From Pomacea canaliculata (taxonomy: Eukaryota > Mollusca > Gastropoda > Architaenioglossa > Ampullariidae): 64,000 nucleotides of DNA. The notes below the pieces were generated by a model, which was not told the DNA's origin, made no database searches, and saw only the letters and a list, made by a program, of their open reading frames with translations. The position numbers were made by a program, and so were the translations under genes. The stretch covers positions 44,060,296-44,124,295 of the forward strand of contig NC_037590.1 in NCBI RefSeq assembly GCF_003073045.1, given 5' to 3'. Numbering within the stretch: the stretch's first letter is position 1; each line of letters starts with the position of its first letter. Positions 29,690-58,880 of this stretch are shown piece after piece.

Positions 29690-31700
29690 AACAGGTTCCA
29701 GCCATCGACAGCTTCCACCACAACTTCCACTTTCATCACTCGTCAGAGGTAAGCAGTCTACTAAGGGAGGGATCCTAGACTTTTGTTGGCCTCCGTACAT
29801 GTAGGTGTATTCAGACTTCAACGCTTAAAGTGTTGAACTGGGTTTTTTTCTTGGTGTTTCTGTTCTTTTTTGTTTTTCAGATTTGTAGTTTTTCGCGAAT
29901 TTGAATCTTTCAATAGATGTCGCTGTTCGGGGATGTCTTAAGCACACACTATCAGAAAAGGAAATGTCCATCTGTAAATTATCCCAATCTAACGGTATAC
30001 GCTGGGATGAAAGGTCAGAGGAGACAATAACTTATGGCTCTTTGCAGGCAACGACTTTACAAACCTGATCTCACACACACTCTCACTTACGCGAGCACGC
30101 ACACACACACACACACAATGCACGCATCCGCACGCACATGGCATCTCTGTCTCTCATAGTCACTCCATACTCCTTCAGACGTGCAACTTTGTACTTGTTA
30201 TACTTACCTTCCACACTCCGTGTTTCTTCTTTTCTTTATCTTTTATATTTCTACAAGTTTATTCACAATAGTTCAGGTTTTCTTTTGTTATAAAATTTGC
30301 ATAACAAATGTATTTGAATTTGAAGTCATCACAGTGTCGACAGTTAAATGTGATTCTGTGACAAGGAAATGACTGTACATGACAAGAATTTTACTGATGA
30401 GAAAACACTAATGTTGTCACAAGAAATGTGGTTACAGTTACAGCACAATGTGACTTGTGTTACAACAACAGTGAGTGATGTGATTTCAGATCCTCACAGC
30501 CATGAAGTCGCTGGTGCTGATCCTGGTGTTGGCCGCAGCAAGCATGTCGGCTCATGTTCCAGAAGAACGAGACTTGCTTGCCACCAATTCCTTGCTTTCG
30601 GTGGTCGATCCCCTTTTGGCGTTGGCTACCTCACTACTGCCAACCCTCCTGTCTGTCCTCATCCCCATTGTTGCTGCTCTCCTGAATGTTGTCGCGTCCT
30701 TAGCAGGCAGTCTGCTGGGTACCGCTCTTGCTGTCGTCCATGGCCTTCTGACTATTGTTATTAACATCGTGTCCCAACTGGTCGACTGTGTGACAGCCGC
30801 CATCAACATACCCGTCGGCAACATTGTGAAACCCATCCTGGGTACAGTCACCAGCGCTGTCTCCTCCATAATATCAAATCTCACAGGTACCTACTGCACC
30901 CTGACTGCAAAGCCAGCTTCTCTTACAAATAAAGCAGTGTGTCTGTGTGTTTGTCTGTTTGAATGTGTGTGCTGGCGCGCGCCTGCATGTATATAAATAA
31001 TTATATTAATGAGATGGCCTATACCGTCATATGTAATTATATTTTAACGGATTCTTTACAAATTCATCTTACTATTTCTATCCCTCTCTCTTCTCGTCCA
31101 TCAATGTGTCTAAAAGACTCCTTGACTTACAAATTAAGAAGCGAGCAAAGACAGTTAACAAACTTAAAACTGAAAGTGAGGGGAAGGACGACAGGGGCAA
31201 CAGAGAGTTTTACTGACTTGCTTAATTCTCAGTCCTCGCCATTTAGCTTTGAGTCCAAACTTTGCCAACCTCGTTAATAATCACTGATGTCGATGTGTGT
31301 GCAGAGGCATGCCTGTAGTAGCTACGATGGACAACTCTCCTCTTCTTGGGGGCAAGTGAGTTCCGTATTTTTGTTTCATGTGACTGCTTGTTCGTGGAGT
31401 TGGTCATTTATTAAGTCGTTTTCTGTGTGCTTGTGTCCTTGTTTCTTGTGTGCTCGGTAATTGCATGCAGTCAAGTGTCAGTGAACGGAACCATACATCT
31501 TTACTGCCTCACGATGCTATATTCATAGAGAATTCCTGAATAGATAATCTGTGCGATGCATGTTATCTGTATCCTCTCTTTATTACAGCCCAGTTCCTGA
31601 CTCGATGGGACGACAGAACTTGGAGAAATCCCATGACGCATTCAAACTACTCCATCAGCTACAGGGAGGTGATTGTGTCAGAGAATAATAAACATGGCTA
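29690..31700 (+). CDS. Array copy B: secreted hydrophobic two-cysteine protein, 132 aa
   Basis: The non-coding exon ends at 29748; the coding exon is 30490-30886 (ATG 30502), and a tiny coding exon starts at 31305 with TAG at 31316-31318; the 3'UTR exon starts at 31589 with AATAAA at 31687-31692. The protein has a signal peptide (MKSLVLILVLAAASMSA), then HVPEERDLL, then about 100 residues of Leu/Val/Ile/Ala/Ser/Thr helices with no charged clusters (for example LLPTLLSVLIPIVAALL). Cys96 and Cys131 could pair; NLT at 126-128 is an N-glycosylation sequon. I do not recognise the family. Such composition suggests a surface-active, lipid-binding or membrane-interacting secreted protein (inference). 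The donor after the small exon is GC (GGGGCAAGT), not GT, but lies in the 3'UTR. Confidence 0.8.
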
Positions 31701-32091
31701 AAACTATTTACACTCTTTGTGTTGTACTAGACTCTCTAAAGGTGTGTTTGTGTGTGTTTTCTTGTCGTCATGCTATCTGGATTTTTGTTTTTGCTTTTAA
31801 AAAAAACCAGCTGTTGCTAGGTAACTAAAATTTTTTAAAAAAACACTATGTTGAAATGTCAGGAGTTAGCGTTAGTCGTCAGTGTAAATTAACTCTAAAT
31901 ATTAAAGAGAAAGTTTTGACAACAGAATAAATTAAAAATAAATTAAAATTATAAAACCTGTAATTTCTCTAAAGCATATTAAAACTCAAAGTATACACAT
32001 TCAAAGATTAGAGTGTTTAAGAATGCGTTTTAAAAACCTATACGTGCCGTGTCCGTCATCTTGAAGAAAGACTAGAGAAGACTTTAGTCCA

Positions 32092-32123
32092 GTGTCTCTC
32101 TCTCTCTCTCACTCTCTCTCTCA

Positions 32124-32173
<50 letters not shown>

Positions 32174-32176
32174 CAC
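32092..32176. repeat. CT / CTCACT microsatellite
   Basis: TCTCTC followed by TCTCAC hexamers and CACACA. The matching site after copy C (about 59265-59295) lacks the expansion. Confidence 0.95.
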
Positions 32177-32284
32177 ACACACACATAAATAACACATGAG
32201 TGTCACAGACAGTGAATACAAAATGTCTCACACAGTTCCATAGACAGGCATGACAAATGTCACCATAAGAAGAAAAGTTGGTCA

Positions 32285-32570
32285 GTAGTCGTTGGCTTGT
32301 GGGTGGATGCAAGCTGCAAAGAACTCGATGACAATAAAAACTCTCGGAGTGAATTTAAAGACTTGCCGTTGATAGTCAACTGGCGAAGCATCCTCCATGA
32401 CGATGGTCAGAACACAGTGGTGTCAACACAACTACCTGTTAGTCCCCAGAAAGCACCGACCTCATTGTTTCTCGAGGTGGACTGCATCTGGAAACACTGA
32501 CTCCAGAGGACGGGAGGACAACAGTAGAAGAGGCCTTGTCATCTATTCACGTGCGTTTCGATAAAATCAC
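32285..32570 (+). pseudogene. Protein-like segment repeated after copies B and C
   Basis: The frame reads WVDASCKELDDNKNSR, then VNWRSILHDDGQNTVV and LFLEVDCIW. The second copy at 59390-59695 keeps the frame longer and ends with TVEEALSSIHARFDKIT. The few differences between copies are mostly amino-acid changing plus one indel. No start context or conserved splice sites were found, so it may be an exon relic of an unknown gene. Confidence 0.3.
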
Positions 32571-34215: not shown

Positions 34216-34271
34216 GTGTGTGTGCGCGCGCTTCAGTTAAGTGTATAAATTAATTTTTCTCCCTGTTTCAG

Positions 34272-34999
34272 AACTGGAAAATGGATGTTCAGAATCAAAT
34301 AGCACATATCGCGCAGACACTGGTCAGTATTTCTTCTTTCATTGTATTTAAGGGCAGCAGGAAGTTACTATCTAGTGCAGGCTATATGTTATTCGTTATT
34401 GTCTAAATGTAATATTTCAGTCAAAATACTTTAGTTGTCGGGGAAAACATAGGAGTGAACGTAATGAAGGCGTGAAACTGAAAGTCAGATATAGATAGAG
34501 AGAGAAATTCTTTTTCACGGTTTGTTGAAAATTAAATAAACTGTGTGTAGATGTCACAGTGTCATTGCAGTGTCACAGTTTAATTCAAATAAAGAGTATC
34601 AGAGGGCTTCATCATGAAATTTCGTTATTTTTTCCCCGATTTAGTGTGTTGTCATCTTAGCGGAGACGATAATGATTCCCAAGAGACACCTTTTGGTCAT
34701 TTAACACTTGTGTATAATTATTTCAACCAAGCTTTGTGGTTTCATCTACTTTCCATGAATAAAGGATTTCTACAAGAAGCATTTAAGTTATCGTTTATTT
34801 TTCATGTAGGATGCTTCCTTGAGACATTACCCTCACCCAGAAGTTGGCAGAAGGTTCGACTACGCAGACAAAGTACAAGAAGCTGAGAGAGAAAAGCGGA
34901 AGTACTTGAGTGACCCGGAACGAGCCACTGCGCATGCTCAAGACTTCTCAAGAACGTCACATGCGAGACGACAGTTTTGAAAGTGCCTTTGATGAGTAG
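34272..34999 (+). pseudogene. Duplicated exons 2 and 3 of charged-protein gene X
   Basis: Exon 34272-34322 (NWKMDVQNQIAHIAQTL) matches 63933-63983 exactly in translation. A second exon starts at 34810 (DASLRHYPHPEVGRRF, DYADKVQEAEREKRKYL, SDPERATAHAQ) and ends at one of two stops depending on frame (34978-34980 or 34997-34999). A charged helical tail ERHMRDDSFESAFDE is in a neighbouring frame, so one base seems to be missing. The first exon, seen at 63064, has no counterpart here, which marks this as a 5'-truncated copy. Confidence 0.5.
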
Positions 35000-37440
35000 A
35001 TGAAGAGGCACACCACGAACCAAGTTACATTTAGATGATTTGTTTGGGATTGAGATTATGTGTGTACATAGTTTGTGTGGAGCTTGTTTTACAGCAATAC
35101 GTGTGTACATCGGTGTACACATGGTCTGTGTGTACATAGCTAGACTGGAGTAGGTATGAGGGTGCGGTCTAAACACCTTTATGCATCTCTATCCACCCTC
35201 ATGCGCACGAATTAAGATCAAGAATGTACATGTATTCAAGAATGTACATGTATTATTAGACATGTACATATATATGTATATGTATACTATTTTGTTGTTA
35301 TTAAAAAAAGAAGACGGCATCAAGAAAAAAATGACATCTGATAGAAATATATGCTTTAAAGGGGGATAACAAAATGTTTTGTGGCTTTGTTTATTTATAG
35401 GTGGCCTCCCTTTAACTGTCTATGACACTGATGTAATATTCCTTCACTAGCTTCTGTCAAATGACAGGTCAATCTTCTCCACCCCACCCACCACAATAAA
35501 AACAAGCCAACACGTAATGTAATAAAATGCTGTGCTAAGTTCTCATCATTGACAGTTATCCTGTGTGGTGCGGCAGTGAAATATTTATTTCTTTTAAAAA
35601 TGTTATGTGAGAGACACGTGGCAACAAAATACTTAAAACCTTTAGGGCAGCAAAACCACACAGAAATGTAAAGTTACACTAAAAATTTCAGCTACCTACT
35701 TCCTTCTTCTACTTTTTGTCGCTCTCCCTCCCCCTTCCTCTCTTTCTTTCGTTTTACTGTCCTTTTTTTTTTTTTTTTTTTTTTTTTCAATTTCTTCCTC
35801 ACTTGTTTCCGTTCTTTCTTTGATTATTTTTTATTTCTTTATTTCTTCTCTTTTCTACATTCCTTATTTTCTAGACAAATTCACAGACCATAAAGTAAGT
35901 CAGGACTACCATCTATCACTGGGGAGGTTTTAGGCCATGAGGTCAGGTGAGCACTGTGAGCAAAATACTCTGATGTGGGCTGTAGGACATGAAAACATGA
36001 GTTTATTTCTTATGAGTATATATCTATATCTGGATAAATATGAGGGAGCGTGTGCAACTCACGTAAACAACATATACACGACCATAAGCGCGTGCACACA
36101 CAGTATATCCTCTTTATAAAGTTAATAAAGTCAAAGTATTTTGTCTTAGCAAATGCTTCGTTTTTGTTAATATAAAATTTCTTGTAGATGTGACTCTTTA
36201 TGGTATTTGTTAAATGTTACCTACGAGTAAACTGTCTATGGTACAATAAACATTCAGAATACCTTCTACATTTCTACAGCTCTCCACACGCATGCGCACC
36301 AACATTTTGACAATAAAGTGCAGGTACTTCTCACAACACCACTGCTCAAACTTTCGTTGGACAACTGTGGATTCGACAACTTAATTCAGAGTTTGTACAA
36401 ACCTGACTCGTGATTCAACCAGAGAGGGTATAACGTCTATGATTCAACCTGTTTCGGTGATGGAATAAGGGGATGACAACTGATGAGATGCTGTAGTAGA
36501 GCGTGGAGGAGCCTCGAGTAGTGGTGATGTTGGTGATGTTGGTGACAGTTTACATTGTAAAAGTTCTGTTGAGGGGTGTGCGTACACTTGTGTTTTTGAA
36601 AGTGCATGGTATACATGATGGGTGTGCGTACACGTGTGTACAAATGTGTATTGTATACTTGTGTGAATGCGGAAATGTGTACAAGAGTTGCTGCTTTGTA
36701 ATCTGTGTGTGTGTGTGTGTGTTTTGTACCTACTGAACCCGGCTACCCGACTCACAACCTGCCATACCACTTAGTCTGTAGAATGCTCAACTCTCACTGC
36801 TCAACCTGATCAGGTGGTCGCCTACCTGTTCTACATGTGCTTCGATAGTCGATTCCTCCCAAGTACCTGTTTGTGAACAGTCAGGAATATTTCCAGTCTT
36901 GTGCCTTGCTAGTGGCATTAGTCGCTGCAGTGGACACTTGTGATTGACCTTCACCTGAGGAGGAATTCACTCGACCTGTGATAAATAAACCCAAGAAAAT
37001 GTTTACTAATCCATCGGATGTTTATTCATCAAAAACCAGCTCAAAGCAGATTGTGAGTTGTATAATTTTGCTTTTGCAGTGCCATTTTATTTCGTATGTC
37101 CTGTAATGTTTCGTCCTTTACTTTTATTTCAAGTAAACTACCAGGCGGTAGTGAAGTTTCGCTTCATGCGCATACGCAGACTATACCCATACGTTTAGAT
37201 ACGCCCGGAGGTTTCGATTCACTACACCGGCAGGTCATTGTCGTCACGGGTCAAACACCGGAGCCCGCAGAGACACGAAATATAAATAGGGATCAACAAG
37301 ACACCGCCAAAACCAAAGGCGCGGATGAGAATCAGTTTACGGTAATCAGATTTTTAAAGACATGTGGGGCATTGATGGGCTTGCCAAAAAGCGGGACATT
37401 GGGCGTCCCGCCCGGACATTTCATGACCTGGTCACCTTAA
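35000..37440. other. Duplicated non-coding stretch
   Basis: No gene was recognised. It has a poly-T run near 35770, TG-rich stretches and several AATAAA motifs. All of it is repeated, with many small indels, at about 44300-46700. Confidence 0.6.
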
Positions 37441-37509
37441 ACAAGTAATGCTACACCTCCGGATCTGTATCTAGAACCTCTTCTGTTTTTCGTGAAACAT
37501 GTAAAACCA

Positions 37510-39175
37510 GCCAGGTCGACCTAGTCAAAGTCGTCTAGTTTTGTTTCTAAAAGACAAGCAATGTCTATTTTAGAAATTACATCATATAATTCCGGAAACT
37601 TTTTCTTTGCGGTGAGCCCACAAACATTCAGAGATAAGAAGCGTAGGTGCATACTTGCCAGTTTCGGACAGCTGCAATCATCATCTTTTAACCGGGCTGG
37701 AAATTCATAGCTAACCATACTAGTGTGTTTGGGCGAAGTAGCATAAAGTATTGAAAAGTCCTGATCTGCATCGGGCAAGCGTTCATTACATTGTTGGGTA
37801 GCTGGTCGAAGAAACACAGAGTTATGCCCCCTTGGGCCAGCCTATGCCTGTTGACTTATCATAGGGGTTTCATCCCCAAATCCACAAGAAGCACCCTCTT
37901 CGGATAGATACCCCAGACCGAGAGAAGCGTAGTCAATGACTTTCACCCCAAGCTTGAAAAGATCATCTGGGGTCTCGATTTCTATTGGCTTTGGGTGATC
38001 TGCGGAGGACAGTCCTGGAGGGGATTTCTTCGTGCACATTATCTTGCCGTCCACAGTCCACGCCATGTAGCCCAGTCTCTTGACTTGCCAAAGAAGTCGG
38101 GCACGTAGAAGGGTGATATCATCATTAATGAAAGTTTGCTCGTAGCCAGGTTTACCTTTTAGGTTCTTTTTCTTTGCCATGACTTCGTTTCGTTAGCGCC
38201 TGGAAACAAACTTGACCAACACAGGTCGAGTTCCTCTAGCCATCTTCCCAGCGCGGTGAACCACAGCGATGTCGGCAACAGACACAACTACTCCGGCATC
38301 GTTGAAAACTTTGATAGCTTTCCACTCCACTTCGTTCCGCCGTCTCTCCCGCATCCTGTGGGATGCCAAAAACTCTCACTGACTCTCGACGGCTGTACTG
38401 GTGCAGCCTGTCATTTTCGTACGTCAGTGTCCGTACAGCAGCCAACAACTTTTCAGTTGCTGGCTGCTGTTGAGCCTGCAACAAGGCGACTCTGTGTAGG
38501 CGACTGTCCAACTCGGCTGTCACACCTTTGATTACCTCCCCTACCACCACAGACAAAGCTGTCGCAAGTATAGGGATCATTTTTCCAATCTGGTCGCTTT
38601 CATCGCCGCTCACAGGTTTAAAGATCGACAGCGCCTCATTTACCTTTGAAAGGATTTTATCCTGAAATGACGAAGGATCGACACCAAAGAGTTCTACAGC
38701 TTGTAGTGTTGATGTACAGGTTGAAGACATACTGTCAACACGCACAGGGGCTGGTGAAATAGGCGAGGATGAAAATGACGATGGCGTCACAGATTTTAAT
38801 TTCAGTTTCTTTGAAGTTTCATTTTCTTCTGAACAGGGCGACGAAAACAAGCTCTTCTTCGCCTTGCCTCGGAAAGACATAGCAGATAAACACGTCACCG
38901 ACACTGAGCAAGGAGATGAACACAACCTTATGAGGCACAGAGATTATGCGACATAGGGTAAAAGCTGGATAATCAAAATCAGTTCCACACGAAATTCCAC
39001 ACGAAAACATAAATAAACATATATCCAGTGAATCAATACAGCAAATACTCTCAGGAGATGTAAGTATACATCACAATTAAGCCAAAACAATAGCAATTTT
39101 CCATAAATCAGAAAAATTTCACGGGAGCTCAAAAACACGGTGTCACCTCCATGAACACAGCTCACCAACCCAACG
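37510..39175 (-). mobile_element. LINE 5' part: 5'UTR, ORF1 and start of ORF2 endonuclease (copy 1)
   Basis: On the minus strand ORF1 starts at 38880 (MSFRGKAKKSLFSS) and carries an RRM-like ORF1 core seen as RRESVRVFGIPQDAG, with the HRAGKMAKGTRPVLVKF part clear in copy 2. It ends near 37842 (PMISQQA). ORF2 then begins and reaches LRFLSLNVCGLTAKKK and DIACLLETK, the start of an AP-endonuclease domain, before the element breaks off. No reverse transcriptase is present. ORF1 is frame-damaged here. Non-LTR element, probably of the Jockey/CR1 group; group assignment is uncertain. Confidence 0.78.
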
Positions 39176-39760
39176 GAACCAAACGTTTTTACTACCTCCC
39201 GACGCTTGCGAAACACAAGAAAGTAAAAGGACAAACATACCATCGCTAATAATAATTTCAAACATAATTATAGAAATACGTCCACACAGCACAGGAACAT
39301 CATTCCATCAAGCACAACCTCACACCAGCACCTTCTATCAAGACATTAAGAAATAGATAAAGAGAACGAAAGAGAGAAGTATGGTAAAAGGAACAAGAAC
39401 AGACAAAAGACACTATACCTGGGTGTCAAGTACCAGGGTTACATATAATGAAGTTTACACCACGATGGTAGTTGTACGAATGATGACAAGATAAGTACAC
39501 ATAAGTACTTAATTTATGACTGGTTTGTACGATTGTTCCCATGAGGCATTCAAACTACTCCATCAGCCACAGGGAGGGGATTTTGTGAGACACAATAAAC
39601 ATGGCTACAACTGTTTACACTCTATGTGTTGTTCTAGACTCTCTAAAGGTGTGTGTTTTCTCGTCGTAAAGGGATTTGATTTTTATGTTTTTGTTGGGTT
39701 TTTTTAAAAAACAGCTGTTGCTAGCTAACTTAGAAAAGCACTTTGTTGAAATGTCAGGAG
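39175..39760 (+). pseudogene. 3' remnant of an array gene (copy D)
   Basis: It matches the last intron and 3'UTR exon of copies A and C: 'aaacgtttttactacctc' at about 39186, 'gaagtttacaccacgatgg' at 39450, then 'catgaggcattcaaactactcc' and AATAAA at about 39594. All upstream exons are missing; the LINE fragment abuts it directly. Confidence 0.75.
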
Positions 39761-39878
39761 TAAATCTTTGTATTCAATATAAATGAACTCTCAATTTGAA
39801 AGGGAAAGTTGTGACACGAGCATAACTTTAAATTATAATAACCTGTAATTTCTTTAAAGTATATTAATACTCAAAGTA

Positions 39879-39969
39879 CATTGGAACCTCGAACTTAATC
39901 CGTTCTGGAAAGCTGTTCATTATCCGAAATATTCGTTATCCGAGGCGTTCGCTAACCGAGGTTCCACTG
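39879..39969. mobile_element. Short pogo/Tigger-like element, internally deleted
   Basis: 91 bases with terminal inverted repeats CATTGGAACCTCG and CGAGGTTCCACTG flanked by TA. The site in copies A and C is a single TA (ctcaaagTAtacac). It keeps one copy of the 15-base word that occurs twice in the long form at 49136-49962. Confidence 0.8.
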
Positions 39970-40689
39970 TATACACAAAGATTAGAATGTTTAAGAATGC
40001 ATTTTGAAAACCTTAGCGTGCCTTGTCCATCATCTTGAGGAAAGACTAGAGAAGACCTTATTCCAGTGACGTGCAGAGCATATCTACACCTGCAAATGGA
40101 GACCGGGCCATAGCCGGCGTCGTCAAATCGCTGCCTTTGCTTATCGCGAGGCCATCGCATAGGATAGATGCTATGGTGTCATAGTACAATTTGCAACCCT
40201 ATTCGTAAATGAACAAACACATAAGGGAGAGAACACGGGAACCCTTAGGACTTGTTCCTCCAACGATCACTTCCCTTTAAAGGGTGAACAGGTCAACCAA
40301 TCGGTTGTTACCTCGTGTAAATTCCACTCTAATGTTTTGCTTACTTGAGCGCCATATTGACATTCGTTGTGAGGTTACTCGATTTGACGTGGATTTGTTC
40401 TCAAACAACAGAAAATGAGAAGAAAACAGTAAGTAATATTTAAATACTAATGTATAATCTAATAAAATATTATCTTGTTTGGTACTTTATATATTGTATA
40501 TACTTGTATATATCATGTAAAAAAAAATTCTTAATTTCTGACTTAAGTGACGTTTCGATCGGTTGTGAAATCTCAGCCCCATACAGTTACTATCTTTGAT
40601 GTGAGCTTACTACAAGAAATCAGAATCTATAATTCTTGAAGTTAACACCAAGCAAATGTTTTTAAAAAGCTCTTTTAAACGGCGTATCA

Positions 40690-43399: not shown

Positions 43400-44057
43400 T
43401 GGCAGAAGACAAAAAAAAAAAAAAGGATGAAAAAAATTTTCCATTTTTTTTGTAAAAAATTTTAAAGGGCAAAAAAAGAAAGAAAAGTTTTTTTTTACTT
43501 ATCTAGTGCATGCTATTATAAACCTCGTTTTAAAATTTTTTTTTGTTCCTAAATGTAAAATTTATTTCAGTCCCCCCAAAATACTTTTTTTTAGTTTTTG
43601 TTTCGGGAGAACCATAAGAGTGAAACGTAAATGGAAGCCGTTGAAAAGACTGGAAAGTCGCAGATGAAAATTAGAAATAGAGAGAGAAAAATTTCCCTTT
43701 TTCACGGTTTGGTTTTGAAATTAAATAAAACTGTGTGTGGGATGGGTGCCCCACAAGTGGTCCCATTTGCCAAGTGTCACAGTTTAATTCAAATAAAGAG
43801 TAAATCCAGAGGGGCTTCGATCATGAAAAATTTTTTGTTTGTTATTGTTTTTTTTTTTTACACCAAATTTAGTTGTGTTTTTTGTCGATTTTTAGTGTGA
43901 AAAGTGATGAAAATTGGATTTCCAAAAAAAAAACTTTCGATTATTTACAGTTTGTGTTTTTTGTTTCAAACAAGCTTTTGTGGGTTTTTTCATCTATTTC
44001 ATGAATAAGGAGTTTCTACAAGAAGCATTTAGTTATCGTTTATTTTTTTCATGTAAG

Positions 44058-44254
44058 GATGCTTCTTGAGACCAATTACCCCACCCTAGAAGTTGGCAGA
44101 AGGTTTCGAGAGATACGCAGAAAGTACAGAGAAGCGAGAGAGAAAAGCGGAAGTATTGAGTGGACCGGAACGAGCCACTGCGCATGGCGCAAAGACTTCT
44201 TCAAAGACGTCACATGCGAGACGACAGTTATGGAAAGTGCTTTGATGAGTAGAT
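44058..44254 (+). pseudogene. Second duplicated fragment of gene X, exon 3
   Basis: It corresponds to 34810-34999 (phrases 'gaagttggcagaaggtt', 'gagagagaaaagcggaagta', 'cggaacgagccactgcgcat'). Frame is not maintained across it, in line with the many indels of this stretch, some of which may be sequencing errors. Confidence 0.6.
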
Positions 44255-46629
44255 GAAGGACCACACCACGAAACCACTGTAATTACATTTAGATGATTTG
44301 TTTGGGATTGAGATTATGTGTGTACATAGTTTGTGTGGAGCTTGTCTTTACAAGCAATACTTGTGTACAAACAATACGGATCGGTGTACACATGTCTGTG
44401 TGTACATAGCTCACTGGAGTAGGTATGAGGGTGCGGTCTATAACCCTTTATAAATGCATCTCTATCCACCCTCATGCGCACGAATTAGATCGCGCGACAC
44501 TTACATATTGGCCGAACTGTGAATACAAACTCATTACGACATAGCATGCTCATCTGTTCAATCTGTCATGTATTCAAGAATGTACATGTATTATAGACAG
44601 TACATATATATGTAGTATGTATACTATTTTTGTTGTTATTAAAAAAAGAAGACGGTATCAAGAAAAATGACATCTGCTAGAAATATGCTTTAAAGGGGGA
44701 TAACAAAATGTTTGTGGCTTTGTTTATTTATAGGTGGCCTCCCTTTAACTGTCTATGACACTGTGATGTGTAATATTCCTTCACTAGCTTCTGTCAAATG
44801 ACAGGTCATCTTTCCACCCCACCACCACATAAAAAACAAGCCACCGTAATGTATAAACCGCTGTGCTAAGTCTCATGACATTATCTTGTGGTGTCCGGCA
44901 GTGAATATTTATTTTTTAAAATGTTATGTAGAGACATTTACGTGGCACCAAAATACTTAAAACTTTAGGCAGCCAAAACCACACAGAAATGTAAAAGTTA
45001 CACTAAAATTCAGCTACTTCTCTTCTACTTTTTGTCGCTCCCTCCCCTTCCTCTCTTTCTTTTTCTTTTACTGTCCTTATTTTTTTTTTTTTTTTTTTTT
45101 TCAATTTCTCCTCACTTGTTTCCGTTCTTTCTTTGATTTTTTTTTTATTTCTTTATTTCTTCTCTTTTATACATTCTTATTTTCTAGACAAACTCCAGAC
45201 GCATAAGTAAGTCAGGACTACCCTCTATCACTGGGGAGTTTTTAGGCCATGAGGTCAGGTGAGCACTGTGAGCAAAATCTCTGATGTGGGCTGTAGGAAC
45301 ATGAAAACATGAGTTTATTTCTTATGAGTATATATCTATATCTGGATAAATATGAGGGAGCTGAACTCACGTAAACAACATATATTACGACCATAAGCGG
45401 CGTGCACACACAGTATATCCTCTTTATAAAGTTAATAAAGTCAAAGTATTTTGTCTTAGCAATGCTTCGTTTTTGTTATGATATAAAATTTCTTGTAGAT
45501 TGTGACTCTTTATGGTATTCTGTTAAATGTTATCTACGAGGAGTAAACTGTCTATGGTACAATAAAACATTCAGATACCTTCTACATTTCTACAGCTCTC
45601 CACACGCATGCGCACCAACATTTTGACATAAAGTGCAGGTATTCTCACAACACTATTCTCAAACTTTCGTTGGACAACTGTGGATTCGACAACTTCAGAG
45701 TTTGTACAAACCTGACTCGTGATTCAAACCAGAGAGGTATAAACGTCTATGATTCAACCTGCTTCGGTGATGGAGTAAGGGGGATGACAACTGATGAGAT
45801 GCTGTAGTAGAGCGTGCGAGGAGCCTCGAGTAGTGGTGATGTTGGTGAGTTGGTGACAGTTTAACATTGTAAAGTTCTGTTGAGGTGTGTGCGTACACTT
45901 TGTGTTTTGAAAGTGCATGGTATAACATGATGGGTGTGCGTACACGTGTGTACAATGTGTATTGTATACTTGTGTGATGCGGAAATGTGTACAAGAGTTT
46001 GCTGCTTTGTATCTGTTTGTGTGTTGTGTTGTGTGTTTTGTTGAATCCTCAACCTACAACTGCTCACCTGAGTTGTCGCCTACTACATTGCTTCGATAGT
46101 CTCCTCCAAGTACTTTGTGAACAGTCAGGAATATTTCCAGTCTTGTGCCTTGCTAGTGCATTAGTCGCTGCAGTGGCACTTGTGATTGACCTTCACCTAG
46201 GAGGAATTCACTCGACCTGATAAATAAACCCAAGAAAATGTTTACTAATCCATCGGATGTTTATTCATCAAAAACCAGCTCAAAGCATATTGTGAGTTGT
46301 ATAATTTTGCTTTTGCAGTGCCATTTTATTTCGTATGTCCTGTAATGTTTCGTTCTTTACTTTTATTTCAAGTAAACTACCAGGCGGTAGTGAAGTTTCG
46401 CTTCATGCGCATGCGCAGACTATACCCATACGTTTAGATACGCCGGAGTTTCGATTCACTGTTTGACACCCGGCAGGTCATTGTCGTACAGGGTCAAACC
46501 CGGAGCCCGCAGAGACACGAAAATATAAATAGGGATCACAAACACCGCCAAAACCAAGGCGCGGTGAGAATCAGTTTACGGTATTCAGATTTTTTAAAAG
46601 ACATGTGGGGCATTGATGGACTTGCCAAA

Positions 46630-46708
46630 AAGCGGGACATTGGGCGTCAAAACGAGGTCAAAAGCGGGACTGTCCCGACTAAAGCGGGACGTCTGGTCAC
46701 CTTAAACA
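46630..46708 (-). mobile_element. Possible terminus of a hAT element (Tip100/Zaphod-like)
   Basis: The minus strand reads GGTGACCAGACGTCCCGC then TTTAGTCGGGACAGTCCCGC, which resembles the widespread 'gggtgaccagacgtcccg' ends of Zaphod-type hAT elements. Only one end is visible; copy 1 at about 37380-37437 has lost part of it. Confidence 0.35.
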
Positions 46709-46789
46709 AGTAATGCTAACATGCTCCGGATCTGTATCTAAACTCTTCTGTTTTTCGTGAAACATGTAAAACCAGCCAGGTCGACTGGT

Positions 46790-48425
46790 CAAAGTCGTCT
46801 AGTTTTCGTTTCTAAAAAGACAAGCAATGTCTATTTTAGAAATTACATCAATAATTCCGGAAACTTTTTCTTTGCGTGAGTCCCCACAACCATTCAGAGA
46901 TAAGAAGCGTAGGTGCATACTTGTCAGTTTCGGACAGCTGCAGTCATCATCTTTTAAAACCGGGCTGGAAATTCATAGCTAACCATACTAGTGTGTTTGG
47001 GCGAAGTAGCATAAAGTATTGAAGTCCTGATCTGCTTCGGCAAGTGTTCATTACATTGTTGGGTAGCTGGTCGAAGAAACACAGAGTTATCCCCCTTGGC
47101 CAGCCTATGCCTGTTGGCTTATCATAGGGGTTTCATCCTCACATCCACAAGAAGCACCCGCTTCGGATAGATACCCCAGACCGAGAGAAGCGTGGTCAAT
47201 GACTTTCACCCCAAGCTTGAAAAGATCATCTGGGGTCTCGATTACTATTGGCTTTGGGTGATCTGCGGAGGACAGTCTGGAGGGGATTTTCTTCGTGCAC
47301 ATTATCTTGCCGTCCACAGTCACGCCATGTAAGCCCAGTCTCTTGACTTGCCAAGAAGTCGGCACGTAGAAGGGTGATATCATCATTAATGAAAGTTTGC
47401 TCGTAGCCAGGTTTACCTTTTAGGTTCTTTTTCTTTGCCATGACTTCGTTTCGTTTGCGCCTGGAAACAAACTTGACCAACACAGGTCGAGTTCCTTTAG
47501 CCATCTTCCCAGCGCGGTGAACCACAGCGATGTCGGTAACAGACACATCTACTCCGGCATCGTTGAAAACTTTGATAGCTTTCCGCTCCACTTCTTCCGC
47601 CGTCTCTCCCGCATCCTGTGGGATGCCAAAAACTCTCACTGACTCTCGACGGCTGTACTGGTGCAGCCTGTCATTTTCGTACGTCAGTGTCCTTACAGCA
47701 GCCAACAACTTTTCAGTTGCTGGCTGCTGTTGAGCCTGCAACAAGGTGACTCTGTGTAGGCGACTGTCCAACTCGGCTGTCACACCTTTGATTACCTCCC
47801 CTACTACCACAGACAAAGCTGTCTCAAGGATAGGGATCATTTTTCCAATCTGGTCGCTTTCATCGCCGCTTACAGGTTTAAAGATCGACAGCGCCTTTAC
47901 CTTTGAAAGGATTTTATCCTGAAATGACGAAAGATCGACACCAAAGTGTTCTGCAGCTTGTAGTGTTGATGTACAGGTTGAAGACATACTGTCAACACGC
48001 ACAGGGGCTGGTGAAATAGGCGAGGATGAAAATGACGATGGCGTCACAGATTTTAGTTTCAGTTTCTTTGAAGTTTCATTTTCTTCTGAACAGGGCGACG
48101 AAAACAAGCTCTTCTTCGCCTTGTCTCGGAAAGACATAGCAGATACACACGTCACCGACACTGAGCAAGGAGATGAACACAACCTTATGAGGCACAGAGG
48201 GCGATGCAACAGAGGGGAAAAGCTGGATAATCAAAATCAGTTCCACACGAAATTCCACACGAAAACATAAATAAACATATATCCAGTGAATCAATACAGC
48301 AAATACTCTCAGGAGATGTAAGTATACAGCACAATTAAGCCAAAACAATAGCAATTTTCCATAATCAGAAAATTTCACGGGAGCTCAAAAAACACGGTGT
48401 CACTCCATGAACAAGCTCACAACCC
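46790..48425 (-). mobile_element. LINE 5' part: ORF1 and start of ORF2 (copy 2)
   Basis: This is the better-preserved copy. ORF1 runs from 48137 (MSFRDKAKKSLFSS) through the ORF1 core (SVRVFGIPQDAGETAEEV, VVHRAGKMAKGTRPVLVKF, NEVMAKKKNLKGKPGYEQTF) to about 47230 and, after a frame break, ends at 47105 (PMISQQA). The ORF2 start with the endonuclease motif follows and is truncated near 46790. It is present because of the segmental duplication, not as an independent insertion. Confidence 0.8.
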
Positions 48426-49010
48426 AACGGACAAACGTTTTTACTACTCCCGACGCTTGCGAACACAAGAAAGTAAAAGGACAAACATACCATCGCTAAT
48501 AATAATTTCAAACATAATTATAGAAATACGTCCACACAGCACAGGAACATCATTCCATCAAGCACAACCTCACACCAGCACCTTCTATCAAGACATTAAG
48601 AAATAGATAAAGAGAACGAAAGAGAGAAGTATGGTAAAAGGAACAAGAACAGACAAAAGACACTATACCTGGGTGTCAAGTACCAGGGTTACTTATAATG
48701 AAGTTTACACCACGATGGTAGTTCTACGAATGATGACAAGATAAGTACACATAAGTACTTAATTTATGACTGGTTTGTACGATTGTTCCCATGAGGCATT
48801 CAAACTACTCCATCAGCCCAGGGAGGGGATTGTGTGAGACACAATAAACATGGCTACAACTGTTTACACTCTATGTGTTGTTCTAGACTCTCTAAAGGTG
48901 TGTGTTTTCTCGTCGTAAAGGGATCTTGATTTTTATGTTTTTGTTTTTTGGTTGTTTTTTTTAAAAAACTGCTGTTGCTAGCTAACTTAGAAAAGCACTT
49001 TGTTGAAATG
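48425..49010 (+). pseudogene. 3' remnant of an array gene (copy E)
   Basis: The same remnant as at 39175-39760: last intron, 3'UTR exon ('catgaggcattcaaactactcc') and AATAAA at about 48843. Upstream exons are absent. Confidence 0.75.
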
Positions 49011-49135
49011 TCAGGAGTAAATCTTTGTATTCAATATAAATAAACTCTCAATTTGAAAGGGAAAGTTGTGACACGAGCATAACTTTAAATTATAATAACC
49101 TGTAATTTCTTTAAAGCATATTAATACTCAAAGTA

Positions 49136-49962
49136 CATTATAACCTCGAACTTAATCCGTTCTGGAAAGCTGTTCGTTATCCGAAACAATGTTTTCCACA
49201 AGAAATAAAGGAAATAGATTTAATTGTTCCCAGCCCTGTTGACTCGTAATATTTGAAAGTTACAGGCTATATAGGGTATTTGTTTAATGAAACAGTTATA
49301 ATGCAATAATATAATGGAGTTAAACAAACAGAGAAACATTAACGAAAGCATTTAAACATCAGAAACTTGCCGTTTTGACGGCGTGGTGGATGGAGGTGTG
49401 GGAGGAAGGGGTGGAATTACTGCTTGGATTCCCCCTCAATTAGCACACGTGATATTATAAAATCGGGGTGACTTCCCTTTTCTGTCGCTTTGAGGTTAAA
49501 GGAAAAAATCTTGTCCAGTGTCTGTTCCTTCTGCCTTTGTGTGTGTGTGTTTGTAAAACTCTTCGATAATACGACATCACATATCCGACAGACGCATGCC
49601 ACCTTCATACTTTGAAATCATTTCCTTTTTCAATTCATTTGTTGGCCGCTTCCTTGTCATTACTTCACTACTATTAATTGTTCTTAATCTTCTTTGGAGC
49701 CATGATTGAGGATTATCTTATTAAAATTATTAAACTAAAGCACAAAAATCACTAAATAAGAAGGATGTGCATAGATAAGGAACGACCGATCGTAACTATG
49801 TCTCAAGCACAAATGATGACATGCTGGTCGGTCACGTGTGGTTCACGTGGCTGTTCGTTATCCGAAATTTTGTTCGCTATCCGAGACAAACTTTTAATGA
49901 AATTTTTGTTCGTTATCCGAAATATTCGTTATCCGAGGCGTTCGCTAACCGAGGTTCCAATG
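49136..49962 (-). mobile_element. Pogo/Tigger-like DNA transposon, deleted
   Basis: 827 bases flanked by TA with inverted termini (right end in reverse: CATTGGAACCTCGGTTAGCG). Subterminal 'gttcgttatccgaaa' words occur near both ends. On the minus strand, near 49700, a remnant reads MAPKKIKNN, and further on KRPTNELKKEMISKYEGG and MRLSDM, like the N-terminal DNA-binding region of pogo-family transposases. The catalytic domain is gone. Confidence 0.75.
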
Positions 49963-50616
49963 TATACACAAAGATTAGAATGTTTAAGAATGTATTTTGA
50001 AAACCTTAACGTGCCTTGTCCATCATCTTGAGGAAAGACTAGAGAAGACCTTATTCCAGTGACGTGCAGAGCATATCTACATCTGCAAATGGAGACCGGG
50101 CCATAGCCGGCGTCGTCAAATCGCTGCCTTTGCTTATCGCGAGGCCATCGCATAGGATAGATGCTATGGTGTCATAGTACAATTTGCAACCCTATTCGTA
50201 AATGAACAACACATAAGGGAGAGAAACGGGAACCTTAGGACTTGTTCCTCCAACGATCACTTCCTTTAAAGGGTGAACAGGTCAACCAATCGGTTGTTAC
50301 CTCGTGTAAATTCCACTCTAATGTTTTGCTTACTTGAGCGCCATATTGACATTCGTTGTGGGGTTACTCGATTTGACGTGGATTTGTTCTCAAACAACAG
50401 AAAATGAGAAGAAAACAGTAAGTAATATTTAAATACTAATGTATAATCTAATAAAATATTATCTTGTTTGGTACTTTATATATTGTATATACTTGTATAT
50501 ATCATGTAAAAAAAATTTCTTAATTTCTGACTTAAGTGACGTTTCGATCGATTGTGAAATCTCAGCCCCATACAGTTACTATCTTTGATGTGAGCTTACT
50601 ACAAGAAATCAGAATC

Positions 50617-51260
50617 AAAAATCAAAATCAAATCAAAACAGACTTTATTGTCTGCCCAGGAGGACAGAAATTTGTCTTTGCTCACATACCCATACAGGAC
50701 ATTTAACACACAGTTAGAAGTAAAAGTGAGGAGTAAAATAGTGTTGATTGCACCAGTCCATCAAGGCAGTGTATGTTTATCCTAAACACAAACCTTGGGT
50801 GACCAAGGGCCTAAAAGCACTGCTGAACAAAAAGAAACATTTGTTCATCACGGGCAGAAGCACGACAGAAGATTAGTACATAGAGAGGACCATGATGCTA
50901 TCCGTTGGGTGGGCAGAGGCTCTACGAGCATACTAGTTAGTCCGATGCTTTCAGTAGTTTGCCGGTGGACCAACGAGTGTCGACGAGATTGAAACAGAGG
51001 TCGAGTTAGCTCTCGCCATAAACCCGATGTGTCAGAAATGCGGCTCGTGGTTACATCTTGAGCTCGCTGGAGGGACTGCCAGACGTCGAGTGTTGATGCT
51101 TCCGCATGACGCAAGAGATACGCCGAGAAAGATCTTGGTGTCCTAGTGGAGGCGTACGGCGGGAAAGATGTCGACATCAGTGCCACAGCAACGTGATGAG
51201 GTGGTCGACGAATACGCCGCGAAGCTCCAGAATTTAAGCAGGCGAGGTAGAAGGCGGCGC
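50617..51260 (-). mobile_element. Insertion of retroposon-derived sequence in copy 2
   Basis: 644 bases sit between direct copies of AGAATC (50611-50616, 51261-51266); copy 1 has the uninterrupted 'agaatctataattcttg'. The left end is a run of AAATCAAAATC units followed by 'acagactttattgtctgccc', which looks like the tail of a retroposon in minus orientation. On the plus strand a fragment VTKGLKALLNKKKHLFITG resembles the linker of invertebrate LINE polyproteins. Class uncertain; it may be composite. Confidence 0.55.
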
Positions 51261-53693: not shown

Positions 53694-55997
53694 GAAGTAG
53701 CAAACTGGTTAAAATACAAGGGCTTTAGATTAGCTTTTCCCAAAACCCAGGCAATAATATTTAAAAAACTTAATCAGAAAACAGACTATCCCAAACTAAC
53801 ACTTAACCAAACAACCATTGACTATAGCTTCCAGGTACAATTCTTAGGAGTAATTTTCTCGGATAAAACCAACTGATCCCCATTCGTGGACAAAATAACG
53901 AAATCTGCCAAAAAAGGAATAAACCTAATAAGAGTAGTAAGCGGTAATACCTGGGGCGCCCACCCAAAATCGTTACTTAACTTATATCAAGCCCATGTAA
54001 TGTCAAAACTGCTCTATGCAGCCCCACTCTTAGTACACTTGAGGTCTAACCAAATAGTCAAACTCCAATCCGTTCAGGCCAGGGCACTAAAAGTAGTGTT
54101 GGGTGTACCTTTGTACACACCAAACCTGTCAGTACTGGCAGAGACAGGACAAAAACAAATAATGGAGCTGATTATCAAATTATCAAGAAGAGAACAGTCA
54201 ACTTCTACTACAAGACGCAGTGTCTCCCTCCAGACCATCCAGTCCGACAGATCCACTCAACCCCACAGACACATGACAGTAAGCCGCACCCCACAACCCA
54301 CTATACAGCATCACATCCAACAGTTAGAAAACACAAAAGGAGCAGAAACAAACATTACAGCGCCCTACCCACACAGCGACATGTAAACTTCACCTTGGAC
54401 ACTTCCACAACCGTAAATAGACACTGATCTCATCAATATGGCAAAGAGGACCATCAACACCTAATCACCTCAGAGATCAAACTCAAACTGGGCGCCACCT
54501 ACCAGCAGAAACAAACATTACAGCGCCCTACCCACACAGCGACATGCAAACTCCACCTTGGACACTTCCACAACCACAAATAGACACTGATCTCACCCAA
54601 TATAACAACAAAGAGGACCATCAACACCTAATCACCTCAGAGATCAAACTCAAACTGGGCACCACCTACCAGGGCTATACGCAGATATACACAGATGGCT
54701 CCCACAGCACAGAAACGCAATAACTGGGCTAGGAGTTTATTGTCCTGACAACATAAACCTTTCCATCAAACTCCCGACCCACACCTCCATTTTCACAGCC
54801 GAGATGACTGCTATACAGACAGCCATTGAGAATATACACCTCCAACTGAGGGACACCACAAGCCGACATTTCCACATACTATCGGACTCCCTGTCAGCAA
54901 TCCAGTCTCTTCAAAACAAATCATCGAACAGAGTAGACATTGTTTATGAAATATTGTCCCTCATAAACAAGATTAACAAAGACAATAGAGACGTCAGGTT
55001 CCTTTGGGTTCCCTCCCATATTGGGTTAGAAGGAAACGAGGGAGCTGATAAATTAGCCAAACTGGCAGTAAAACGAACTAGCAATCCTAAAGTCACCACC
55101 CTAAACATCTCTATTTCACCAGCAGAGAGAAGAATAGCAATAAAACCAGCGATAAAATTAAGGTGGAATGAGAAGTGAAGGTAAAGGAACTAGGAGACTG
55201 ATAGATGAACAACCAAGTACTACTCTGCTTTTCTTTGGCTCAAATAGGCCCCTCCAATCCAAGATAGCCAGAATGAGGCTTAGCGGAGAATATCTAACTA
55301 AATATAAAAGAGACTCTCTTTCCTGCACATGTGGAGACAGGATTAGCACCTCACATGTGCTTTTGGAGTGTCATGAAAACAAAGATGAAAGAGATGTCTT
55401 AAGTCAGGTCTTAAATAAACACAGGCTAGCCTTAAACATTATCAACTGTCTTAACCCACCAAAAGATATATGGGACACCATACTGTCATTGGTAGTGACA
55501 ATGGTGGCACGCCACCCGCATGCTAAGCTCATATAAACAGGTTGAAGGTAACCCTGAGTAAGTCCTTCAAAATATATCTTTATAGGGAAAAACTGCATGA
55601 CGGGTGCTTGACCATCGGCACTAGCACCAAACTAAAAAAAATTAAAATTAAAAAAATTTAAAAGCAGCATAAGCATATTACCCTAATTTAAATAAAAGCC
55701 TAGGACATAGATATATGGCAACAAAGAGGATCTGGTAACCTGGACAATACACCACCACTGCGGACTTGGCAGGCGTCCAGGATATCATAAGCGCAGCACC
55801 TAAAATGGTAAAGGGCACCAGTAGACAACACCATGAACGGCAACCCTTCTCCCTTCCCTTCCCTTCCCATCTTCCCACCGGTTCCCCCCCCCCTTTCCAA
55901 ACTCTTCCCCTCTCCTAAACTCCCTTGCCCCTCCCCCACAGTGCGAAATCGCCTCGCGGTGGAAGCACTTTCCCTTTTCAAATACAACAACAACAAA
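53694..55997 (+). mobile_element. 5'-truncated LINE with RNase H domain (I/Nimb-like)
   Basis: Flanked by TCTAACAATGGC (53682-53693 and 55998-56009); the duplication extends to 17 bases with one mismatch. The matching site of copy B (29076-29096) is empty. It starts within the reverse transcriptase (KGFRLAFPKTQAIIFKK, FQVQFLGVIFSDKT), continues through the thumb (SKLLYAAPLLVHLRS), then RNase H motifs (IYTDGSHS near 54685, LSDSLSAIQSL near 54885, WVPSHIGLEGNEGADKLAKL near 55005) and a CCHC-like tail (CTCGDRISTSHVLLECH). The 3' end is an ACAACAACAA tail. Several stops and frame changes make it inactive. RNase H after RT points to the I superfamily. Confidence 0.85.
54341..54672 (+). repeat. Internal tandem duplication in the LINE (about 165 bp x 2)
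   Basis: Unit 1 is 54341-54503 and unit 2 is 54504-54672, both starting 'agcagaaacaaacattacag' and ending 'ccacctaccag'. They differ at a few bases. The unit lies between thumb and RNase H domains. Confidence 0.9.
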
Positions 55998-56219
55998 TCT
56001 AACAATGGCCAAGTGAGCAGGAAAAATCAACGGTCTTGTCCGCCATCTTCTTTGTGACTCTCTCAGTGACCTTCCTCAGAATTTGTGCCTCTTCGATTCT
56101 ATTCACCTCCAAATCTCTTCATCCTCATCGTCATCTGAGTGGCTCGTCGAGCGTTGTGTGTGTGTGAAATGCGTAGTGCGTATTCAAGGTAAGTGTACCT
56201 TCGTCATGCGACACAAAAA

Positions 56220-56607
56220 ATACTCAAATGATCGCATGCTGATAATCATACTAGTTTTTTATTCGCCACAAGCAACGTCCGATCTTCATTCTGATAATAG
56301 TGTTTAGCATTTCTACACCTGGGTTATTGTTTTGTTGGTTTTGTTTTTTATTTGCTTTTATTTTGTTTTTTGTTGCTGTTGTTGTTGTTTTTTGCCCAAT
56401 TCCTGCGAGATATGAGAGTAAAGACTAATACTGCTACAAGTCAGATTTTCGGATTGCGGCTGTATCTAGCAAGGTAAACGAATCATACTTTGTGATCAGA
56501 AACACACGATCATTAGAAAAACAACTCCGTTATTAGTTCTCACAACTGACAGCATCCTTCGCCTCGTGTCTTGTGTCACACATCACGTGACACCTTTGAC
56601 TATAAAA
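56220..56607 (+). promoter_or_regulatory. Promoter of array copy C
   Basis: CACGTG at 56584-56589 and TATAAAA at 56601-56607, embedded in sequence nearly identical to B. The LINE at 53694-55997 ends about 600 bases upstream of the TATA box. Confidence 0.78.
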
Positions 56608-56631
56608 GGCCGCCACTTCTTTGCTCCAGAC

Positions 56632-58880
56632 AAACAGGTTCCAGCCATCGACAGCTTCCACCACAACTTCCACTTTCATCACTCGTCAAAGGTAAGCAGT
56701 CTACTAAGGGAGGGATCCTAGACTTTTGTTGGCCTCCGTACATGGAGGTGTATTTAGACTTCAACGCTTAGAGTGTTGAACTGGGTTTTTTTCTTGGTGT
56801 TTCTGTTCTTTCTTGTTTTTTCAGATTTGTAGTTTTTCGCGAATTTGAATCTTTCAATAGATGTCGCTGTTCTTGGATGTCTTAAGCACACACTATCAGA
56901 AAAGGAAATGGCCATAAGTAAATTATCCCAATCTAACGGTATACACTGGGATGAAAGGTCAGGGGAGACAATTGCTTATGGCTCTATGCAGGCAATGACT
57001 TTACAAACCTGATCTCACACACACTCTCACACACACACACACACCAATGCACTCATCCGCAAGCACACCATCGTCTGTCTCGCATAGTCACTCCATACTC
57101 ATTCAGACATGCAACTTTGTACTTGTTAAACTTACCTTCCACACTACGTTTTCCTTCTGTTATATTTACTTTTATATTTCTACAAGTTTATTCACAATAG
57201 TTCGGGTTTTCCTTTTGTTATAAAATTCGCATAACAAATGTATTTGAATTTGAAGTTATAACAGTGTCGACAGTTAAATGTGATTCTGTGACAATGAAAT
57301 GACTGTACATGACAAGAAGTTTACTGATGAGAAAACACTAATGCTGTCACAAGAAATGTGGTTACAGTTACAGCACAATGTGACTTGTGTGACAACAGTG
57401 AGTGATGTGATTTCAGATCCTCACAGCCATGAAGTCGCTGGTGCTGATTCTGGTGTTGGCCGCAGCAAGCATGGCGGCTCATGTTCCAGAAGAACGGGAC
57501 TTGCTTCCGATGGCCGATCCCGAGTTGCCGTTGATTACCTCACTACTGACAAACCTCCTGTCTGTCCTCGGCCCCATTGCTAGTGCTCTCCTGAATGTTG
57601 TCACGCCCTTAATAGACAGTCTGCTGGGTGCCTCTATTTCTGCCGTCCTGGGCCTTCTGGCTCCTGTTCTTGACATCGTGTCCATACTGGTCAACTGTGT
57701 GACACCCGCCAGCAACATACCCGTCGGCAACATTGAGCAATTCGTCCTGGGTACAGTCGAAAGCGCTGTCTCCTCCATAAAATCAAATCTCACAGGTACC
57801 TACTGCACCATGACTGCAAAGCCAGCTTCTCTTACAAATAAAGCAGTGTCGCTGTGTGTCTGTGTGTGTCTGTGTGAATGTGTGTGTGCTGGCGCGCGCC
57901 TGCATGTATATAAATAATTATATTAATGGATGGCCCTTACCGTCATATGTAATTATATTTTAACGCATTCTTTACAAATCCATCTTACTATTTCTATCCC
58001 TCTCTCTTCACGTCCATCAATGTGTCTAGAAGACTCCTTTACTTACAAATTAAGAAGAGAGCAAAGACAGTTAACAAACTTAAAACTGAAAGCGAAGAGA
58101 AGGAAGACAGGGGCAAAAGAGAGTTTTACTGACTTGCTTCTCAGTCCTCGCCATTTGGCTGTGATGCTAAACTTTGCCAACCTCGTTAATAATCGCTGAT
58201 GTCGATGTGTGTGCAGAGGCCTGCCTTTAGTAACTACGATGGACAACTCTCCTTTGTTGTGGTAAGTGACTTCTGTATTTTTATTTCTTTGACTACTTGT
58301 TTGGGGTGTTTCTTATTTATTAATCATTTGCTGTGTGCTTGTGTCCTTTGTTTCTTGTGTGGTCTGTGGTTAGATGGATTCAAATACATGTATCAGCAAA
58401 CGGAACCAAACGTTTTTACTACCTCACGACACAAAAAAAGTAAAAAGACAAACATACCATCGCTAATAATGATTTCAAACATATTTATAGAAAATAAGTC
58501 CACACAGCACAGGAACAGGATTCCATCAAGCACAACCTCGAAGACACTATACCTGGGTGTCATGTACCGGGGTTACATATAATGAAGTTTACACCTCGAT
58601 GGTAGTTGTACGAATGATGACAAGATAAGTACACATAAGTACTTAATTTATGACTGGTTTGTATGATTGTTCATTCCGTAGCTTTCCCACGGCAAACAGA
58701 AAGAATAGTGAATTCTTGAGTAGATAATCTGTGCGATGCATGTTATCTGTATCCTCTCTTTATTACAGTCCAGTTCCTGACTCGATTTGAAGACAGAAAC
58801 TTTGAGGCATCCCATGAGGCATTCCAACTACTCCATCAGCTACATGGAGGGGATTGTGTCAGAGAATAATAAACACGGCT
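56632..58880 (+). CDS. Array copy C: secreted hydrophobic two-cysteine protein, 126 aa
   Basis: The non-coding exon ends at 56691; the coding exon is 57417-57795 (ATG 57429), the small coding exon starts at 58217 (Glu-Ala-Cys-Leu, TAG 58228-58230), and the 3'UTR exon starts at 58769 with AATAAA at 58868-58873. The signal peptide MKSLVLILVLAAASMAA and HVPEERDLL match B. The mature part differs strongly (for example LGASISAVLGLLAPVLDIV against LGTALAVVHGLLTIVINIV in B), yet the internal Cys, the NIPVGNI motif, the SNLT sequon and the C-terminal ACL are kept. It is six residues shorter than B, with the gap after ERDLL. Unknown family; secretion is the only firm functional inference. Confidence 0.8.

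Follow-up and report, generated by a model that had tools for sequence, protein, structure and literature searches.

What process can replace 29 of 84 codons between two copies of a gene and leave no synonymous codon change behind? The question is raised by a small gene array of the apple snail Pomacea canaliculata, contained in a stretch of 64,000 nucleotides (C1:44060296-44124295, here called the window, by which we mean the whole stretch). Reading by eye and alignment of the copies gave a plan of four exons: exon 1 is 5' untranslated region (UTR) behind a TATA box, exon 2 carries a leader and a hydrophobic core, the tiny exon 3 encodes (E)ACL and the stop codon, and exon 4 is 3'UTR with AATAAA. 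The window holds three copies that bear exon 2 (A, B and C), together with two relics consisting of part of exon 4 and flank. A search of the same genome, covering 440,159,624 bases in 24 contigs and giving a lower bound of family size, added four copies on C1 in which exon 2 is open (D at 44924698+, E at 44920572-, F at 43783418- and G at 43712588-) as well as, on C10, three deep paralogs (13954861+, 13968395+ and 13975614-). All copies come from one assembly, and leader and splice sites were called by eye. We propose that B and C have been under positive selection as genes of a functional, putatively secreted protein, a reading to which we give a probability of roughly 0.8, the role of the protein not being included in this figure.

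Replacement-only divergence between copies B and C

Selection tests were carried out on the last 84 codons of exon 2, where alignment is unambiguous (30634..30885 in B and 57543..57794 in C, both on the + strand), while the ambiguously aligned linker (about codons 25-44 in B) was excluded from them. In this core, 29 of the 84 codons are replaced between B and C and none is changed synonymously. Nei-Gojobori counting gave 37 nonsynonymous differences and a single synonymous one, a step within a multiply changed codon, so that nonsynonymous divergence (dN) is 0.243 and synonymous divergence (dS) 0.014; codon positions 1, 2 and 3 received 21, 15 and 2 substitutions. When the comparison starts at codon 34 and runs up to the splice site (95 codons), 34 replacements and no synonymous change are found with both placements of the linker gap. 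The 24 leader codons behave differently, with two synonymous changes and one replacement. The original prediction had been made from the last 56 codons of exon 2, for which it reported about 20 replacements without synonymous change between B and C, and about 13 replacements with three synonymous changes between A and B; our codon lists return exactly these counts. Copy A, which had served there as an array comparison copy, is not intact, since a net frameshift in its linker, at a C run near 26189, leaves five stops in the start-codon frame. Upstream of the frameshift we used A in the leader comparison only.

Under random non-stop mutation with a transition bias of 1.0 to 3.0, between 11.6 and 12.5 of 38 substitutions are expected to be synonymous, and the probability of one or fewer is 5e-6 to 2e-5. 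In a pairwise codon-model likelihood-ratio test between B and C, a dN/dS ratio (omega) of 1 was rejected with p 1.4e-7 (F3x4) and 1.3e-7 (equal codon frequencies). The branch test, on a tree of seven copies with B+C joined, E+G joined and the rest unresolved, rejected it for B and C together (p 2.0e-8), for B alone (2.0e-4) and for C alone (2.4e-5), with omega at the upper bound; the background of this test contains the broken copy A, which does not enter the pairwise test.

The noncoding sequence of the same two units provides the neutral rate. Between B and C, introns 1 and 2 have diverged by 6-7%, and the range over upstream sequence, exon 1 and introns 1-2 is 1-7%. Against this, nonsynonymous sites of the core differ at 37 of 178, compared with 70 of 1127 in introns 1-2 (Fisher p 6e-9) or 157 of 2546 when two upstream blocks are added (p 6e-10), which is a replacement rate about three to four times that of the introns. 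Adding far upstream sequence, promoter, exons 1, 3 and 4, the start of intron 3 and all 3' flanks brings the total, summed by hand, to 292 of 4577 (6.4%). Exon-intron edges in these comparisons were set within a few bases of the feature coordinates given below. Thus the check suggested with the original prediction, dN/dS with intron divergence as control, comes out with dN above introns 1-2 as well as above dS. The near-identity that it described outside the mature exon was borne out for B and C in upstream sequence, exon 1 and introns 1-2, but not in exon 3 (8 of 48 positions different), the start of intron 3 (32 of 161) or exon 4 (12 of 108). It also fails between A and either of the other two copies, where introns 1 and 2 differ by about 20%.

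Codon changes were assigned to branches by majority rule. B has eight replacement codons of its own and C fourteen, six codons are altered in both to different residues, one B-C difference is common to G, and neither the B nor the C branch carries a synonymous change. The six sites altered in both copies are not a significant overlap (P 0.07). The stem leading to B and C carries four nonsynonymous and three synonymous changes, two and two of which are found in B and C alone. In the intron tree B+C has a bootstrap of 100, with terminal branches of 0.033 and 0.035. Therefore, the burst postdates the B-C duplication. The intron tree groups D and E with B and C and the core tree does not; core tree support is 89 for B with C and 38-41 for the remainder. 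The burst of selection is restricted to the B and C branches and is not array-wide, and so the diversifying selection originally proposed for the mature region is upheld within these limits. The core of C has also become more polar and acidic, with a net charge of -3 vs 0 or +1 in the others.

Sister copies, distant paralogs and the predicted product

The cores of A, D, E, F and G (26195-26458 in A) differ by only 2-8 replacement and 0-3 synonymous codons per 88, and introns differ by 9-32% in nine of the ten pairs of these copies. In the 5' part of intron 1 the difference is 0.29-0.32 between A/F/G and D/E, 0.09-0.12 within A/F/G and 0.03 between D and E. A profile of the mean difference between A/F/G and D/E, in windows of 80 columns, runs at 0.23-0.45 over intron 1 columns 420-820, falls to 0.04 and 0.01 at the intron end and leader, rises to 0.14 in the indel-rich linker, lies at 0.000-0.037 in the core and 0.07 at the splice site, and returns to 0.21-0.29 in most of intron 2. 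Since synonymous sites are also held in exon 2 of these five copies, selection at the protein level alone should be insufficient to account for it. The simplest reading that the profile suggests is gene conversion centred on the exon, with strong synonymous constraint as the alternative.

A further mosaic segment is seen at the start of intron 3, where C (58262-58432) is near A (26881-27047; 15 of 164 positions different) and B (31355-31517) is farther (32 of 161). This A-like segment is the opposite of the affinity of C in introns 1 and 2, and it probably reflects gene conversion.

The seven C1 copies differ by 0-2 replacements in the first 24 codons, and the leader is recognisable in the three C10 paralogs. 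By eye, the C10 genes retain the leader, H(V/A)PEER, the intron positions, the core cysteine and the exon 3 cysteine, with exon 3 endings NACL..., NTC... and GAC-stop; their mature parts are otherwise very unlike those of the C1 copies. The gene model finds its best support in two features common to C1 and C10 genes, the intron 2 phase and the cysteine. One C10 paralog (L028 about 4940-5320) carries between leader and core a 13-residue tandem repeat, with eight identical units and one variant. The first two C10 genes (L028 from 4861 and L029 from 8396) were aligned by blastn at 89% identity in the opening 93 bases of the coding exon and at 90% along a 975-base stretch that starts near the end of exon 2, and no blastn match was obtained between their mature parts, which points either to extreme divergence or to a swapped part. 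The second C10 paralog as genome query gave no additional locus, and a short DNA match on C12 yielded no convincing relative by tblastn (best E 0.28). As a separate observation, the final ~80 bases of intron 1 (window 30411-30489) align together with the leader to two C10 paralogs at 81-82% identity (counterparts at L028 about 4760-4850 and L029 about 8296-8380), and could be an intronic element or an unrecognised exon.

The predicted product of the C1 copies has a strongly hydrophobic core (mean Kyte-Doolittle 1.24-1.62) and a leader that, by eye, looks like a signal peptide. Each C1 copy has one cysteine in exon 2 (B, C and D-G) and one in exon 3, and thus no cysteine-rich framework. In five of six family cores, a set that includes the close relatives B, C and D, the period of hydrophobicity has its whole-chain peak at 96-104 degrees, and the best 22-residue moment has a permutation p <=0.01 (200 shuffles), consistent with an amphipathic helical fold. 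The sites that vary between B and C tend to be less hydrophobic in copy D (0.76 vs 1.92 elsewhere, Mann-Whitney p 0.076).

Database searches returned no family for this product. Pfam hmmscan found no model at gathering score for six family proteins (the first C10 paralog was not scanned), NCBIfam nothing at cut-off for five, and a PDB sequence search with the B protein no match. A C10 paralog and a five-member profile gave weak PDB matches, the best being 9j1k_J FtbJ (profile E 2e-4, no single stretch passing) and the remainder including designed helical bundles; we read them as shared helical composition. With the B protein as query, no relative appeared in IMG/VR or GTDB scans, as expected for a snail protein. 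Among the results listed, text searches of open-access papers gave none that we linked to the family, which does not prove the family to be undescribed.

Weighing the explanations

Redundant or dead copies, B and C having changed neutrally after constraint was relaxed, would be in keeping with the frameshift of their array neighbour A, with the two further copies of which only part of exon 4 and flank is left, and with the GC donor of exon 3 in B. However, neutrality predicts that dN, dS and intron rate are equal, and dN is 0.243 vs 0.06-0.07 in introns 1-2 with no synonymous codon difference. Exon 2 is stop-free in B and in C. When the six open copies are aligned in pairs, most exon 2 gaps are multiples of three (23 of 29, vs 50 of 254 in introns 1-2, in counts where pairs of copies are not independent), and neither B nor C resembles the decaying copy envisaged with the original prediction. 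We consider relaxed constraint very improbable. A local hypermutation of the mature exon is harder still to believe. It would suit the amount of B-C change lying in exon 2 beside quieter flanks, and it has been suggested for conotoxin exons, where passages of PMC3862624 invoke error-prone polymerases; nevertheless, a mutator is blind to codon position, whereas third positions took 2 substitutions vs 21 and 15 at the others, when one-third is expected (P 3.6e-5). In the exon 3 rows of the same source, conotoxin mature exons have Ds of 0.34-0.68 and Dn of 0.35-0.53, unlike the near-zero dS between B and C.

If the mature exon of B or C had come, by gene conversion or exon swap, out of a more diverged paralog, the difference would be old and there would be no burst. 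The family does contain mosaics, as exon 3 and intron 3 of C resemble A, exon 2 has been homogenised among A, D, E, F and G, and two C10 genes are ~90% alike in leader and 3' part with mature parts that blastn does not match. But an old imported exon should bring synonymous differences and there are none in 84 codons, and among the matches listed in own-genome protein and DNA searches with B as query, themselves lower bounds, there was no donor with B- or C-specific residues. We judge the import of an old exon to be improbable, if a little less so than the other two. An antisense reading frame was also considered: it lies over the exon in A, B and C, but position arithmetic puts its third positions on those of the sense frame, and antisense coding was rejected as unable to account for the pattern.

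Several observations weigh against positive selection as we propose it. Synonymous divergence of exon 2 is below that of introns in most comparisons: A and D differ at 1 of 79 synonymous sites vs 126 of 515 in the intron (p 4e-8), and B and C at 1 of 74 vs 70 of 1127 (p 0.12). Gene conversion or constraint may have depressed dS. Because exon 2 dS is low in most comparisons, the size of dN/dS is unreliable and only its being above 1 is secure; and because homogenisation lowers dS against B and C too, the case rests on introns as well as on dS. The intron comparison (0.243 vs 0.06-0.07) is safer than omega from dS alone. The start of intron 3, with its 32 of 161 differences between B and C, is as diverged as the nonsynonymous sites. 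Omega is weaker for B-D (2.3, p 0.09) and C-D (3.4, p 0.013), and near 1 in the background copies (A, D, E, F and G), where changes are few and the broken A is included. At the end of exon 3 a GT donor is missing in B and E, and the expression, splicing and secretion of B and C are putative. Regarding the helical fold, one core (C10b) fails the helix test, with a peak at 180 degrees and p 0.075, and variable sites show no significant preference for one face of the helix (permutation p 0.06-0.28 across the stretches and angles tried).

Gene anatomy, known systems and possible role

The gene features and relics that follow all lie on the + strand. In copy B the TATA box, TATAAAAGG, was read at 29659..29667; this string is found in all seven C1 copies, and one C10 paralog reads TTATAAAAG. 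Exon 1 of B, 5'UTR, occupies 29690..29748 (5' end approximate, from eye and alignment of copies) and ends in the donor AG/GTAAGC. Exon 2, with splice sites placed by eye, is at 30490..30886 (coding sequence 30502-30886) and encodes in order the leader MKSLVLILVLAAASMSA, HVPEERD, the linker and the hydrophobic core; its donor CAG/GTACCT is identical in the seven C1 copies. Exon 3 (31305..31351) holds (E)ACL, the stop and 3'UTR, and EACL-stop is common to all seven C1 copies; its donor is GC instead of GT. At this junction B reads GC (window 31352-31353) and E is without GT, while A, C and G read GTAAGT. Exon 4 of B, 3'UTR, is at 31589..31700 with AATAAA at 31687-31692. In copy C the alignment of copies places exon 1, 5'UTR, at 56621..56691 (5' end approximate), followed by exon 2 at 57417..57795 (coding from 57429), exon 3 at 58217..58261 with (E)ACL, stop and 3'UTR, and exon 4, 3'UTR, at 58769..58877 with AATAAA at 58868-58873. 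Copy A has its exon 2 at 26073..26459, with the core (26195-26458) open behind the broken linker frame, exon 3 at 26837..26881 and exon 4 at 27126..27237.

The two relics were found by self-BLAST of the window. The first, at 39537..39878, comprises part of exon 4 and 3' flank with pieces of intron 3 just upstream, and the self-BLAST gave no match to exons 1-3 there; the second, at 48787..49135, is similar and lies within a duplicated block. This block belongs to a segmental duplication, 34403-40633 / 43549-50622, with 77-98% identity by block, that carries repeated mobile-element-like reading frames and both relics. The C unit has, compared with the B unit, an extra stretch at 53703-55997, which contains a reading frame with a match to RNase H and is probably a retroelement. 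Elsewhere in the window, the reading frames at 7786-8094 (-), 22351-22602 (-) and 17990-18901 (+) comprise ones that match glycosyl hydrolase 18 and galactosyltransferase above cut-off and one that has weak AAA matches below cut-off.

Judged from sequence, B and C fit the kind of the positively selected secreted multigene family, in the sense of a kind and not of homology, with secretion predicted. A dN above both dS and intron divergence in the mature part was found in copies B and C only, and a conserved leader with a variable mature part in the C1 copies, with recognisable leaders on C10. Secretoglobins and other small helical two-cysteine secreted proteins are small, helical and cysteine-poor, and the secretoglobin is a four-helix fold that forms a disulfide-linked dimer. 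The snail product would be alike in being small, probably secreted and helical, and cysteine-poor, and it differs from secretoglobins in that six snail proteins reach no Pfam model at gathering score. Conotoxin superfamilies, according to PMC3862624, are also gastropod multigene families with conserved leader, conserved intron ends, a fast mature part and many trinucleotide indels. However, they have a cysteine framework, whereas the C1 copies have two cysteines, one per exon; in the three-exon superfamilies described there leader and mature part are in separate exons, and here both are in exon 2; their mature-exon Ds is high and the dS of the B-C core near zero; and the snail product is longer and very hydrophobic. 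Rodent ESP pheromone genes, according to PMC3477143, likewise combine purifying selection on the leader and gene conversion between paralogs with Ka/Ks above 1 in the secreted parts of some pairs. The likeness is one of pattern, and we claim neither a sequence relation to ESPs nor membership in conotoxins or ESPs.

We propose that a segmental duplication gave rise to B and C as open-frame copies of a gene encoding a small secreted protein. Its product would consist of a leader, the conserved HVPEER, a linker of variable length and a very hydrophobic, amphipathic alpha-helical core with a conserved cysteine, to which the tiny exon 3 would add a second cysteine near the C-terminus, possibly for a disulfide or a disulfide-linked dimer. 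Positive selection in both lineages would then have replaced about a sixth of core residues in B and a quarter in C. As the most likely mechanism, we suggest that the helices would assemble into a small bundle or oligomer with affinity for a lipid, a membrane or a partner protein, and that exposed residues in the two copies would have been retuned against a partner that itself changed. More tentatively, a snail lineage outside cone snails may possess a system of hypervariable secreted proteins, helical and poor in cysteine, that share a leader. In such a system pooled copies would keep one mature exon by exon-centred conversion, and departed copies (B, C and, more deeply, those on C10) would change almost exclusively at the amino-acid level or swap the mature part.

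The role of the protein may be sought in defence or in reproduction. Apple snails load their eggs with secreted proteins, and the same anatomy and selection would suit an egg albumen or perivitelline, seminal or chemical signal function, a possibility compatible with positive selection on B and C to which we give somewhat less than even odds. Among signal genes, those of the rodent ESP family offer the same combination of leader conservation, conversion between paralogs and Ka/Ks>1 in what is secreted (PMC3477143). On the other side, neither the window nor the searches indicated a tissue, and 12 of 26 matching passages in PMC13336756, which deals in part with perivitelline fluid, gave no pointer to the family. 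The likeness to secreted immune or interaction proteins drawn with the original prediction is conjecture. Between defence and reproduction, we lean slightly to a role in defence.

The divergence of B and C is replacement-only and unusually clean, introns and flanks constitute built-in neutral controls, and the family proteins scanned here reached no Pfam model. A homogenised pool and two diversified copies within one family allow gene conversion and adaptive divergence to be studied against each other in an invasive snail. Should its role lie in defence or in eggs, the protein would be a candidate for work on how apple snails deal with parasites or reproduce.

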